Of a stretch of 60,321 nt of DNA, positions 34,870 through 39,302 are shown one piece after another; within the stretch, counting starts at the first letter, position 1, and every line of letters begins with the position of its first letter. The DNA is from an uncultured bacterium. GTDB lineage: Bacteria > Desulfobacterota > BSN033 > UBA1163. Both the position numbers and the translations under genes were made by a program. The notes beneath the pieces were generated by a model that saw nothing but the letters and a program-made list of their open reading frames with translations, was not told the DNA's origin and ran no database searches. The stretch is taken from positions 1 to 60,321 of the forward strand of contig CALLAL010000046.1 in the NCBI GenBank assembly GCA_938002255.1, read 5' to 3'.

Positions 34870-36909
34870 TTAAGTCATCACTTTATCATATCGTGAAAAC
34901 TGCATAGAAAAAGTTCCCCGCCCCTGTGTGAGAGACCTTAAGTCCGTGGAGTAACCAAACATTCGGGTCAGTGGAGAGAGGGCTTTAATGAGGATGATCT
35001 TTCCTTTTGGGGTGATCGCCTCGACGGAACTTTTCCTCGCTTTTAAGTCTCCCACCACTTCTCCCATAAATTCTTCAGGAACAATAATGTTGATTTCCAT
35101 CATAGGTTCCATGAGGACGGGTTGAGCCTTTCGGCAGGCTTCCTTCAGGGCATTGGACGCAGCAATTTTGAGGGCGAGAGGAGACGGATGATTCGGATCC
35201 ATATTGACCCTTAGAAGGCTTACCCGCACATCGGTGAGTGGATAACCCATAATCACTCCAAAGGTGGCGCTTTCTCTGATGCCCTCCTCAATCGAAGAGA
35301 GACAGTCCTGGGATAAAGTGTCTCCAGGGACCTCCGAATAGAATTCGATCCCTTTCCCTCTCCCATTTGGAGAAACACGCAAAAAGACCTCGCCGAATAG
35401 TTTGGTTTCCTCAGTTTCTTTTGCAAAGAGGAAGGAAGCTTCGGACTCTTTCTCCACCGTTTCCCGATATACGACCTGCGGTTTTCCAACATTGACTTCA
35501 AGATGGTAATCCGTTAACAGCCGATTGACCAACACATCAAGGTGTAACTCTCCCATTCCCGAAAGGATCGTCTGACCTGTGTCTTCATCCACCTTGACGT
35601 GAAAGGTGGGATCCTCTTCGCTTAATTTTTGAAGCGACTCGATCAGCTTGTCTTGATCCCGACCGGTCTTAGGCTCCACGGCGATAGACATAACAGGCTT
35701 ATAAAAATCAATAGGTTCGAGAAGAATGGGATGACTTTTGTTGCATAGGGTGTCGCCTGTAGTCGTTTCTTTCAGGCCCATAATGGCCACTATTTCTCCC
35801 GCTCGAGCTTCCTCAACCCGGGTCCGTTGATGAGCATGCATCTGAAAAATTCTTGAAACTTTCTCGGTTTTTCTCAAACGAGGATTATACACTTCATCTC
35901 CCACTCGCAGCACCCCGGAGTAAATTCGGATATAGACTAACTTTCTTCCTTCGTCCATCATCACTTTGAAAGCAAGGGCTGTGACAGGGGCATCATCTCT
36001 TGCCTCCCTCTTTTCTTTCTCACCGGTGAGAGGGTTTGTCCCTTCCACGGATGCAATATCCAGAGGTGAAGGGAGAAAATCGACAATGGCATCGATCAGA
36101 GGCTGTATGCCTCGATTCCTCAAAGCCGCTCCACAGAGGACTGGAACAGCCCTCATGGAAATCGTCGCTTTTCTTAAAGCGCCTTTTAGTTCAGCTTCTG
36201 AAATCCCTTCCCCATTAAGATATTTTTCTGTGAGAGGTTCCTCTAACTCAGCGATGGATTCAATCAGCTTTGAGCGATATTCGGAAACCTCCTGATCCAT
36301 CTCTTGAGGGATAGGAATCTCGTAGTATTCAGTCCCCAGACTTTGTTCATTCCAGATAATTCCCCTGGATCGCATGAGATCAACGACCCCCATAAATTTG
36401 TCTTCCGCTCCGAGGGGAATCTGAAGGAGGATGGGGTGGGCGCCCAACCGATCTACCATCATCTTGACGGTTCCATGGAAATCGGCCCCGATTCTGTCCA
36501 TCTTGTTGATGAAGGCCAGTTTGGGAACCCGATATTTATCTGCCTGATGCCATACGGTTTCCGATTGTGGCTCAACCCCTTCCACTGCACTGAATATTGC
36601 AATCGCTCCATCTAACACTCTAAGTGAACGTTCCACTTCGATGGTGAAATCGACGTGGCCTGGTGTATCAATGATATGAATCGTATTCCCTTTCCATTCA
36701 ACGGCTGTAACTGCAGAGGTGATGGTGATTCCTCTTTCCTGTTCCTGCTGCATCCAGTCCATGGTCGCGGTTCCGTCATCTACCTCTCCCATACGGTGGG
36801 TTTTTTTGGTGTAAAAGAGGATCCTTTCTGTAACCGTTGTTTTGCCGGCATCAATATGCGCCATAAATCCAATGTTTCTGGTTCTGGCGAGCCGTTTCTC
36901 TCCAGCCAT
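34870..36909 (-). CDS. fusA: Elongation factor G paralogue
   Basis: About 679 residues. GTPase motifs are NIGFMAHIDAGKTTVTERI (G1), QERGITITSA (G2), IDTPGHVDFTIEVERSLR (G3) and FINKMDRIGADF (G4). Domains II to V follow with GELHLDVLVNRL and the C-terminal EPMMEINIIVPEEFMGEVVGDLKARKS ... FGYSTDLRSLTQGRGTFSMQFSRYD. It promotes ribosomal translocation or recycling. It stands alone and not with rpsL-rpsG-tuf, so it is probably a second EF-G (EF-G2-like). The frame extends to 36948, but homologues start near MAGEKRLARTRNIG, so ATG 36909 is used; neither start has a good SD. Confidence 0.9.
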   Translation of the reverse strand: MAGEKRLARTRNIGFMAHIDAGKTTVTERILFYTKKTHRMGEVDDGTATMDWMQQEQERGITITSAVTAVEWKGNTIHIIDTPGHVDFTIEVERSLRVLDGAIAIFSAVEGVEPQSETVWHQADKYRVPKLAFINKMDRIGADFHGTVKMMVDRLGAHPILLQIPLGAEDKFMGVVDLMRSRGIIWNEQSLGTEYYEIPIPQEMDQEVSEYRSKLIESIAELEEPLTEKYLNGEGISEAELKGALRKATISMRAVPVLCGAALRNRGIQPLIDAIVDFLPSPLDIASVEGTNPLTGEKEKREARDDAPVTALAFKVMMDEGRKLVYIRIYSGVLRVGDEVYNPRLRKTEKVSRIFQMHAHQRTRVEEARAGEIVAIMGLKETTTGDTLCNKSHPILLEPIDFYKPVMSIAVEPKTGRDQDKLIESLQKLSEEDPTFHVKVDEDTGQTILSGMGELHLDVLVNRLLTDYHLEVNVGKPQVVYRETVEKESEASFLFAKETEETKLFGEVFLRVSPNGRGKGIEFYSEVPGDTLSQDCLSSIEEGIRESATFGVIMGYPLTDVRVSLLRVNMDPNHPSPLALKIAASNALKEACRKAQPVLMEPMMEINIIVPEEFMGEVVGDLKARKSSVEAITPKGKIILIKALSPLTRMFGYSTDLRSLTQGRGTFSMQFSRYDKVMT

Positions 36910-36984
36910 CTTTTTCAACCATCGTTTAGAATAAATATATCCATGCAATATTAAAGGGATTTTTATAAAATGTCAAATTCTCCC

Positions 36985-37013
36985 TTGACAATAGGTAACC
37001 AAATGTTTTAAAT
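36985..37013 (+). promoter_or_regulatory. Predicted promoter of the attenuator-controlled aminotransferase
   Basis: TTGACA (36985-36990), 17 bases, then TTAAAT (37008-37013). Transcription should start near 37020, so the transcript begins only a few bases before the leader-peptide SD. Confidence 0.65.
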
Positions 37014-37033
37014 TTGGCTCAAAAGGAAATCCT

Positions 37034-37093
37034 ATGGGTTGCGTACAACATTTCTTTTATTTTTATTTTTACTTTGGAAAGGGTCACCCATAA
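37034..37093 (+). CDS. Phe/Tyr-rich leader peptide, 19 aa
   Basis: AAGGAA (37023-37028) precedes ATG 37034. The 19 codons read MGCVQH, then eight consecutive aromatic codons FFYFYFYF (37052-37075; five Phe, three Tyr), then GKGHP and TAA (37091-37093). The stop overlaps the first segment of the downstream stem set. A leader peptide with a run of cognate codons ahead of a terminator is the hallmark of ribosome-mediated attenuation, as in pheL/pheM of enterics. The peptide itself would have no role beyond ribosome positioning. A chance origin from T-rich sequence is the main alternative, but the SD, the stop position and the stem logic fit together. Confidence 0.8.
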   Translation: MGCVQHFFYFYFYFGKGHP

Positions 37094-37187
37094 GGACCTT
37101 CCTGAAATGGAAGTGTGAGCCATGGGTGACCGTGAGGCCCCATGGCTCTTTTATTTTAAGCCATAGGGGCAACTCTATGGCTTTTTT
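37082..37187 (+). promoter_or_regulatory. Five-segment transcription attenuator with intrinsic terminator
   Basis: Segments chain as mutually exclusive stems. A:B is GGTCACCCAT (37082-37091) with ATGGGTGACC (37122-37131), 10 bp. B:C is GAGCCATGGG (37117-37126) with CCCATGGCTC (37139-37148), 10 bp. C:D is 37137-37147 with 37159-37170, 11 bp with one bulged A. D:E is AAGCCATAG (37158-37166) with CTATGGCTT (37175-37183), 9 bp followed by a T-run to 37187, the terminator. Inference: a ribosome stalled on the early Phe/Tyr codons leaves A free, so A:B and C:D form and transcription reads through. A ribosome that reaches the stop codon covers A, so B:C and the D:E terminator form. Confidence 0.85.
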
Positions 37188-37213
37188 ATTATTCACGAAA
37201 GGAGAGATCAGGG

Positions 37214-38407
37214 ATGGCTATTTCAGAGAAAGTGAGGAGTGCACTGGATGGTGCCTCTTGGGTGAGGCGGATGTTTGAGCAGGGAGAGGAATTGAAAAAA
37301 CTGTACGGAGAAGAAAATGTCTACGATTTTTCTCTCGGTAACCCCAATTTAGAGCCTCCGGCCTCTTTGAAAAAGGCCTTGAAAGCCCTTGCAGACCAGC
37401 CCATTGCGGGGATGCATCGCTATATGCCTAACAATGGCTATGTTGAAACCCGCAAAGCCATTGCTCAGTTCTTAGAAGAAGAGTCCGGGCTCCCTTTTGA
37501 AGAGAAGCACGTGGTGATGACGGTTGGGGCTGCGGGCGGGCTTAATGTTGTCTTTAAGGCGCTCCTCGACGATGGCGATGAAGTGATCGTTCCTTCTCCT
37601 TATTTTATGGAATTCAAATTTTATATCGAAAACAGTGGCGGTCAGATCCGTTTAGTAGAAACCCATGAGGATTTCTCTCTCGATCTGAAAGAGATTGAAA
37701 AAGCATTGGGGAAGAAGACGAAAGCCGTTCTGATCAACTCACCGAATAACCCAACGGGTGTGGTTTACAGTAAGGAGTCTCTGAAAGCGCTCGGCGCCCT
37801 ATTGACCGAGAAGAGCCGCCAACTGGGGAAGACCATTTATCTCATCACGGATGAAGCCTATCGCAGGATCGTCTTTGATCGGATTCCACTCCCGATCGCT
37901 TTTCAATACTATCCCCATACCCTGCGGGTGACCTCTCATTCCAAAGACCTTTCTCTGCCAGGGGAACGGATTGGCTATGTTGCGGTCAACCCACTCTGTG
38001 AAGGTGTGGATGAGTTGATGGCCGCTATTGTCTTTGCCAACCGGACCCTCGGGTTTGTCAATGCTCCGGCACTCATGCAGAGGCTGGTGGCGCCCCTCCA
38101 GAGAAATTCGATCAACATTAAAGAGTACGAGGAAAAAAGAGATCTTTTCTATCAAGCCCTCACTTCCTATGGGTATCAACTCGTCAAGCCTGAAGGTGCC
38201 TTCTATCTCTTTCCAAAGGCTATGATTCAAGACGATGTTGCTTTTGTCAAAGAACTCCAGTCCAAAAGGATTTTAACCGTCCCGGGAAGGGGATTTGGCA
38301 AACCCGGTTATTTTAGAATTGCCTATGCCGTAGAGCGAAGCACGATTGAAAAGGCCCTTCCAGGGTTTAAGGAGGTGGCTGAGAAATATAGGGCAGGAGG
38401 GAGATAA
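37214..38407 (+). CDS. PLP-dependent aminotransferase, probably aromatic
   Basis: 397-residue fold-type I (class I/II) aminotransferase. The PLP lysine is Lys244 in SHSKDLSLPGERIGY, with Asn179 in INSPNNPTGVVY, Asp213 and Tyr216 in TDEAYRRIV, and a C-terminal substrate-carboxylate Arg in YFRIAYAV. Sequence alone places it among the broad aspartate/alanine/aromatic group (AspC/AspB-like). The upstream Phe/Tyr attenuator is the strongest clue and suggests the last step of phenylalanine/tyrosine synthesis (phenylpyruvate or 4-hydroxyphenylpyruvate with glutamate). AAAGGAG precedes ATG 37214, only 27 bases after the terminator T-run. No other aromatic-pathway gene follows in the same operon. Confidence 0.88.
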   Translation: MAISEKVRSALDGASWVRRMFEQGEELKKLYGEENVYDFSLGNPNLEPPASLKKALKALADQPIAGMHRYMPNNGYVETRKAIAQFLEEESGLPFEEKHVVMTVGAAGGLNVVFKALLDDGDEVIVPSPYFMEFKFYIENSGGQIRLVETHEDFSLDLKEIEKALGKKTKAVLINSPNNPTGVVYSKESLKALGALLTEKSRQLGKTIYLITDEAYRRIVFDRIPLPIAFQYYPHTLRVTSHSKDLSLPGERIGYVAVNPLCEGVDELMAAIVFANRTLGFVNAPALMQRLVAPLQRNSINIKEYEEKRDLFYQALTSYGYQLVKPEGAFYLFPKAMIQDDVAFVKELQSKRILTVPGRGFGKPGYFRIAYAVERSTIEKALPGFKEVAEKYRAGGR

Positions 38408-38491
38408 AAAATCGCCATTGCCAATCTTCAATTTTCATTTTAAGATTCTCTAAAATTGGGTTTTATGTTCCCTTTTGAAGAGAGGCGCCTT

Positions 38492-38926
38492 ATGAAAAGG
38501 TTTTTGGGATTTCCCTCCATTGCTTCAATTCTCCTTGTCTTCCTTCTTTTTTTCTCTGGATGCGTCGTGGGACGATATTATGAAGGTCCACAAATTCCTC
38601 CAGAGAAGATCAGAGAAATCAAACCGGGGATCACGACGAAACAGGAGATTATTAGCTGGTTTGGTCCACCCCAGAACTATATTAGTCCAACCCTTTTCAA
38701 TGAAATCCTCCGAGAGATTGATGTGACAAGGGAACCCCTCACCCATTATCCTTTCGCAAATATCCTCTCCTATCAATACAATCGGGGAAATATCAAAGCC
38801 ATTGTTTTAGTGTTATTTAATTTCGTTGAAGCCAAAGTAAAGTCCGATCACCTCGTCATCTTCCTCGACGAGAACGACCGAGTCAAATATTATGGATTCC
38901 ATAAAGGAACGGATGAGTTACGGTAG
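38492..38926 (+). CDS. SmpA/OmlA-like small lipoprotein (copy 1)
   Basis: 144 residues from ATG 38492, which has AGAGAGG upstream; a frame to 38456 lacks this. The lipid Cys is at about 24 (LLFFSGC). The mature region has the BamE/SmpA-like pattern: IKPGITTKQEIISWFGPPQNYIS, then beta strands, and ends VKYYGFHKGTDEL. BamE-type proteins sit in the outer membrane, but whether this one joins the BAM complex is not known. It closely parallels the next gene, which it overlaps by 14 bases, so a tandem duplication is evident. Confidence 0.75.
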   Translation: MKRFLGFPSIASILLVFLLFFSGCVVGRYYEGPQIPPEKIREIKPGITTKQEIISWFGPPQNYISPTLFNEILREIDVTREPLTHYPFANILSYQYNRGNIKAIVLVLFNFVEAKVKSDHLVIFLDENDRVKYYGFHKGTDELR

Positions 38927-39302
38927 AATCTTTTTGGTTCTTTCTCTGATAGCTTTTTCATGGGGATGTAGCATTGGAAGGGTTTATGTAGGCTCTGAAA
39001 TCAAGCCAGATCCCAGAGAGAGCATTCAGGTCGGTTTGACCACAAAGAGCCAGATCCTTGAAACCTTCGGTCCTCCGGACCGAATCCAGAAACAGTATGA
39101 TGGAGATATCTTTGTCTATGCTTATCTTCGAAAGAACTCCACAAAATTAACCCTTGAAGAACCCTACCTTACCAATCTGACCCTCTTTCAATACTCCAAG
39201 GTTCAACAAAAGAAAGATGCCCTTGTTATCCTCTTCGATAAAGAGGGTGTCGTGAAGAATTATGGATATCAAAAAGGAACTCAGGAGCTCACCCCCTTTT
39301 AA
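38913..39302 (+). CDS. SmpA/OmlA-like small lipoprotein (copy 2)
   Basis: 129 residues. ATG 38913 is preceded by AAAGGAA, a better start than ATG 38892. The lipid Cys is at about 19 (IAFSWGC). It repeats the layout of copy 1: GRVYVGSEIKPDPRESIQVGLTTKSQILETFGPPDRIQ, a strand-rich centre, and the ending VKNYGYQKGTQELTPF. It is probably an outer-membrane-facing partner of copy 1, translationally coupled through the overlap. Confidence 0.75.
   Translation: MSYGRIFLVLSLIAFSWGCSIGRVYVGSEIKPDPRESIQVGLTTKSQILETFGPPDRIQKQYDGDIFVYAYLRKNSTKLTLEEPYLTNLTLFQYSKVQQKKDALVILFDKEGVVKNYGYQKGTQELTPF

Follow-up and report, generated by a model that had tools for sequence, protein, structure and literature searches.

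Analysis of the window, a stretch of 60,321 nucleotides from an uncultured bacterium of the Desulfobacterota, revealed a probable serial two-terminator attenuator in front of a gene for a PLP-dependent aminotransferase, in which hairpin B:C (terminator 1, T1) is followed by hairpin D:E (terminator 2, T2). Judged from its sequence, the leader is very probably a ribosome-mediated transcription attenuator, with its two terminators acting in series under the control of Phe (and Tyr) supply. The promoter, Shine-Dalgarno (SD) sequence, 19-codon ORF with FFYFYFYF and five complementary segments described in the first-pass annotation were all confirmed in position (Table 1). A single U-tract terminator had been placed at the end of the leader; D:E has the features of a terminator, but B:C had been overlooked as a second one. 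Because the T-tract TTTTATTTT (37149-37157) directly adjoins the 3' end of C, B:C is an intrinsic terminator too.

Table 1. Features of the leader and of the adjoining genes in the window.
Feature	Position	Strand	Basis or remark
EF-G-like gene upstream of the leader	34870-36948	-	divergent
Promoter TTGACA, 17-nt spacer, TTAAAT	36985-37013	+	sequence; TTGACA 36985-36990, TTAAAT 37008-37013
Shine-Dalgarno AGGA of the leader ORF	37024-37027	+	sequence
Leader ORF MGCVQHFFYFYFYFGKGHP, 19 codons	37034-37093	+	translation, ortholog comparison; ATG 37034, TAA 37091-37093
Regulatory codons FFYFYFYF, codons 7-14	37052-37075	+	F/Y-rich run in all orthologous leaders read
Segment A, GGUCACCCAU	37082-37091	+	pairs with B; overlaps the last leader codons and the stop codon
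Small hairpin separating segments A and B, possibly one that pauses RNA polymerase	about 37096-37116	+	shuffles
Segment B, GAGCCAUGGGUGACC	37117-37131	+	partner A or C
Segment C, GGCCCCAUGGCUC	37136-37148 (start given as 37136/37139)	+	partner B (terminator 1) or D
Terminator 1 (T1), B:C hairpin and UUUUAUUUU	37117-37157	+	U-tract, paired cells with double changes
Segment D, AAGCCAUAGGGGC	37158-37170	+	partner C (second antiterminator) or E
Segment E, CUCUAUGGCUU	37173-37183	+	partner D
Terminator 2 (T2), D:E hairpin and U-tract	37158-37190	+	compensatory double changes
PLP-dependent aminotransferase, 397 aa, predicted regulated gene	37214-38407	+	NCBIfam NF005305 (PRK06836), Pfam Aminotran_1_2

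In the window, helices A:B and B:C each consist of 10 perfect pairs, D:E has at least 8 pairs, and C:D has 9 pairs with a one-base bulge; a bulge in this helix, which the window's own family has as well, speaks against the proposed mechanism. The 181-nt leader RNA folds more stably than 200 out of 200 dinucleotide shuffles (z -4.7), and a chance origin of the leader was ruled out by these shuffles together with the covariation and the arm-swap test given below. As the EF-G-like gene upstream is divergent, the two terminators cannot serve it and act on the leader transcript only; their assignment to that gene was thus rejected.

The aminotransferase scores 571 bits against NF005305 (PRK06836), for which the cut-off is 376, and is a member by this curated threshold. 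The nearest solved sequence is 3ele, deposited merely as 'Amino Transferase'. Two neighbouring small lipoprotein-like ORFs of similar sequence lie 3' of the gene (38456-39302). In four other loci (L003, L005, L008 and L011) a repeat-like stretch (CACGAATTAC..TTCGT) is situated between terminator 2 and the aminotransferase start. A tandem pair of PRK06836-like aminotransferase genes after one aromatic leader was seen in L236 (3163-5532, minus strand) and in L021/L164, where perhaps one enzyme serves Phe and the other Tyr.

All 59 related genomes gave protein matches to the aminotransferase, though a good part of the weaker matches are to other aminotransferases. The same leader precedes orthologous genes in at least four families besides that of the window: apart from the window's genus and family, it was found in L017 and L019 from a second family of the class, in L020 and L027 from further families of the phylum, and in L031 and L035, which are named Deltaproteobacteria MAGs. 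Among the ortholog loci examined it was missing upstream of some, e.g. L018, L022-L026 and L028-L030. All 38 aminotransferase leaders read are rich in aromatic residues, which make up 303 of their 787 residues. Since three of these leaders (L020, L031 and L035) contain Phe without Tyr, Phe and not Tyr is the constant residue.

Within the window's family, the residues of the aromatic run are almost exclusively Phe and Tyr, and single-base codon differences in the run number 6, 85 and 178 at codon positions 1, 2 and 3, respectively. Thus 178 of 269 differences are synonymous third-position changes, and the remainder are mostly Phe/Tyr swaps. Such third-position and Phe/Tyr-conservative substitutions rule out that the ORF is an artefact of a T-tract; the leader ORF is conserved as a protein among the orthologs and is predicted to be translated. 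A TTGAC element is located 34-65 nt 5' of the leader ATG in 38 of 38 leaders, most orthologous leaders from the window's family carry a purine-rich SD, and the C-terminal GHP of the peptide is conserved among orthologous leaders. In eight loci (L131, L135, L139, L140, L156, L157, L162 and L171) TTGACA is placed merely 35-38 nt 5' of the ATG, so that transcription would begin at or beside the start codon and the leader peptides are possibly leaderless.

Pairing of the two terminator stems is kept across the homologs. In 22 leaders the pairing of T1 and T2 together amounted to 99.4%, and six of the pairs had changes in both arms. On 92 sites, which were chosen by the covariance-model core and whose alignment was fitted to the terminator pairs and hence biased towards them, 99.1% of cells were paired and both sides had changed in 12 of 16 pairs; double-change cells, a count inflated by kinship among the sequences, amounted to 173 against 57.5 after shuffling, and none of 500 shuffles reached as high. 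On the same sites T1 alone was paired in 99.2% of cells, with double changes, and T2 showed compensatory double changes in seven of its seven modelled pairs. D:E could instead be the sole terminator, with B:C as a competitor hairpin that frees D and with an incidental U-tract, a reading we consider unlikely. It is modelled on the his attenuator of Salmonella and E. coli, where an additional hairpin between the pause hairpin and the terminator was proposed to cut basal read-through (PMC1183508); against it speak the U-tract after C, kept as at least five T within 8 nt in 88 of the 92 homologous sites, and a covariation of B:C like that of a true terminator stem.

For C:D, which lies outside the model, 94.2% of cells were paired and 36 double-change cells were counted against 14.8 after shuffling, most of them at one position where U-A alternates with C-G (column 110 with 152). 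The dominance of this one concerted position would fit two independent terminators without C:D exchange, whose stems resemble each other by duplication or shared style and of which the second merely leaks. Both stems also have a GCC-AU/GU-GG core in common, and a likeness of B and D would by itself make C complementary to D. We nevertheless hold this explanation to be improbable, more so than the preceding one, as C:D is locus-specific inside the aminotransferase set (z -5.7) and inside the other set (z -6.8), and as the GGGG of D, in the window's family, is mostly situated in the D:E loop and yet is kept opposite the CCCC of C. GCCAT-stem terminators are moreover rare in the host genome (9 pattern matches in 3.27 Mb), which argues against the same explanation and rules out a generic terminator style of this genome.

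In the arm-swap test, pairing between arms of the same locus was compared with pairing between arms of different loci (2000 permutations); the z values, in which kinship between loci remains, were -13.4 for A:B, -14.7 for B:C, -10.3 for C:D and -17.6 for D:E, each with 0 of 2000 permutations. For A:B the energy was -15.4 kcal/mol with own-locus arms and -11.6 kcal/mol with swapped ones (0 of 2000 permutations). The expectation that orthologous leaders would carry aromatic codons and compensatory pairs was thus borne out: 38 leaders are aromatic-rich, the terminator pairs covary and all four helices are locus-specific. The small hairpin between A and B was matched in stability by at most 5 of 100 shuffles in 22 of 37 aminotransferase leaders, and it reached no significance against shuffles in the non-aminotransferase leader classes; that it could pause the polymerase is a guess.

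Constrained folding of the window sequence was run at successive transcript lengths. With A exposed, A:B had a probability of 0.98 as long as C was incomplete, and B:C became favoured once C was complete. When D was out and E was not yet, A:B (0.98) and C:D (1.00) were formed together, and after the appearance of E, B:C and D:E prevailed at equilibrium even with A free. Read-through would consequently require that A:B and C:D last kinetically, as in classical attenuators, in which the antiterminator is the first to form. When a ribosome on the stop codon hid A, B:C stood at 0.97-1.00 and D:E at about 0.95 throughout. In the untranslated leader A:B is the first to form, yet pairing of the start region with A competes with it in the window's sequence. 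The window's minimum-energy fold contains this protector stem, but it is not a family feature since its AUGGG arm is missing from many leaders.

The ortholog codons, the covariation and the arm-swap test support the earlier reading of the leader as a case of Phe/Tyr ribosome-mediated attenuation; the ribosome-position logic, the amino-acid signal, termination at both hairpins and an enzyme that makes Phe/Tyr are inferred. When Phe/Tyr is scarce, the ribosome would stall early in FFYFYFYF and leave A free; stalls at codons 7-11 would have this effect, and at codon 14 a stalled ribosome would partly cover A. Free A would pair with B and so block T1, and C, released by A:B, would pair with D and block T2, resulting in read-through into the aminotransferase gene. 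Once the leader is completed, the ribosome on the stop codon would cover A and B:C would terminate transcription, polymerases that escape T1 meeting a second termination at D:E. Sensing by an arrest peptide, or by terminated RNA acting in trans, instead of by slowing of the ribosome on scarce aminoacyl-tRNA, appears highly improbable. The conserved GHP could point to it, and a trp leader peptide that acts in trans is reported for Sinorhizobium (PMC7298713); GHP is, however, accounted for by the pairing of segment A to B, the aromatic run tolerates length changes and Phe/Tyr swaps, and the leader residues vary by operon with the product (Trp, Phe/Tyr, Leu/Ile/Val).

For a wider search, a covariance model of A-E was used, of which the aromatic run is not part. 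It yielded 92 sites of high score among the loci examined and matches at E <=0.01 in 170 of 395 genomes of the phylum, a number that is an upper bound for attenuators because some weak matches fall on the opposite strand of hairpins matched already, and others may be ordinary tandem terminators. Among 60 newly fetched sites, 50 had a leader ORF with at least three aromatics in a row, where 3.4 would be expected. According to NCBIfam searches of representatives, the downstream genes encode DAHP synthases of two types, ADTH synthase, a TrpB-like enzyme, TrpD, acetolactate synthase, 2-isopropylmalate synthase and a phenylacetate-CoA-ligase-like protein, and trpE and other genes were identified by eye. 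The leader residues fit the product, with Trp runs at trp genes, Phe/Tyr/Trp mixes at DAHP/ADTH synthases and Leu/Ile/Val at ilvB and leuA, which are also preceded by the two-terminator leader. A second site in the window's own genome lies before trpD and has a leader with YWWCW (L141). In genome G006, the attenuator before ADTH synthase heads an apparent operon, assigned by eye, that runs through aroC to chorismate mutase/prephenate dehydratase. The mixed aromatic run before a single aminotransferase gene had been called unusual outside Gammaproteobacteria; it is no peculiarity of this locus, being kept throughout the host phylum, where many amino-acid genes have the same layout in front of them.

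The loci of these matches with the two-terminator layout, whose leader residues mostly fit the product, are L136, L137, L141 and L148-L207. Besides the genes named above, they have the layout before LivJ-type ABC binding proteins, an MBL-fold hydrolase (Phe run) and acyl-CoA dehydrogenases (Ile-rich).

Other phyla were sampled through 40 named genomes at E <=0.001. Nine of these had matches; eight are deltaproteobacterial by title and the ninth, a Chloroflexi genome, is borderline (4.3e-4). No model match was obtained in the Firmicutes, Actinobacteria and Myxococcota sampled among the 40. Serial two-terminator attenuation is, with somewhat better than even probability, a lineage-wide architecture in the Deltaproteobacteria/Desulfobacterota, to which the window was assigned by its named relatives, with one chained RNA scaffold and swapped leader peptides that would sense Trp, Phe/Tyr, Leu or Ile/Val. 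Each new segment would flip the previous pairing, one ribosome position thereby controlling two successive termination decisions.

The textbook cases of leader-peptide attenuation are four-segment leaders of enteric bacteria. As in the enteric trp, pheA and similar attenuators, a short cognate-rich leader ORF has its stop codon beside the antiterminator arm, and antiterminator and U-tract terminator are mutually exclusive. The leader of the window shows the sequence features of amino-acid-leader attenuators, namely a cognate codon run in a short ORF of predicted translation, an intrinsic terminator between this ORF and the gene (here two conserved, covarying U-tract hairpins) and an exclusive antiterminator with its 5' arm under the ribosome at the stop codon (A:B versus B:C). 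It departs from the classical trp/phe design, which has four segments, a single terminator and a 1:2 protector stem, in having five segments, two serial terminators, an extra C:D antiterminator and an A segment that overlaps the stop codon; instead of a conserved upstream protector stem, there is a possible pairing of the start region with A in some members only. The five-segment layout thus differs from the classical one as had been claimed, but the his leader, which has an extra hairpin of its own, shows that a number of segments above four is not unique in kind (PMC1183508). That leader is the closest conceptual relative; here the extra hairpin has its own U-tract and is itself a terminator, the five segments are chained, and Phe/Tyr takes the place of His. 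Two tandem terminators with a potential antiterminator are described for the rimP leader of Gammaproteobacteria (PMC2965389), which precedes another gene and is without a described amino-acid leader peptide. For the leader-peptide attenuator of ilvBNC in Corynebacterium glutamicum, which belongs to a different phylum, a three-hairpin model is proposed (PMC11857589), a similarity in outline. No Rfam family (Phe, Trp, His, Leu leaders etc.) exceeded its gathering threshold in the window and 18 homologous loci, and a known Rfam element was ruled out for want of a covariance-model match. A literature search, with most subscription papers outside its scope, brought up no report of a two-terminator leader design, which is weak evidence of novelty.

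The host genome, rated 98.5% complete, presents a puzzle. No chorismate synthase, no ADTH synthase ortholog and no prephenate dehydratase were found in it, the last being present in 7 of 17 genomes of the family, and no DAHP synthase was found above the cut-off in a search that left aside the AroFGH type. De novo synthesis of Phe in the host is doubtful because chorismate synthase and prephenate dehydratase were not found, and yet the genome keeps trpD with its Trp leader as well as the Phe/Tyr leader. The assembly may lack some contigs; otherwise the aminotransferase uses oxo acids of another source. The sensing of Phe/Tyr is independent of which of these holds; the biosynthetic role of the aminotransferase depends on it.

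If the proposed reading is true, a variant that couples two terminators and is spread over a whole phylum would illustrate how switches of this type become tighter, and its covariance model could be used for the annotation of amino-acid genes in poorly studied anaerobes. The leader codons would then predict the substrates of enzymes and transporters, here Phe, and possibly Tyr, for an uncharacterised family of aminotransferases.
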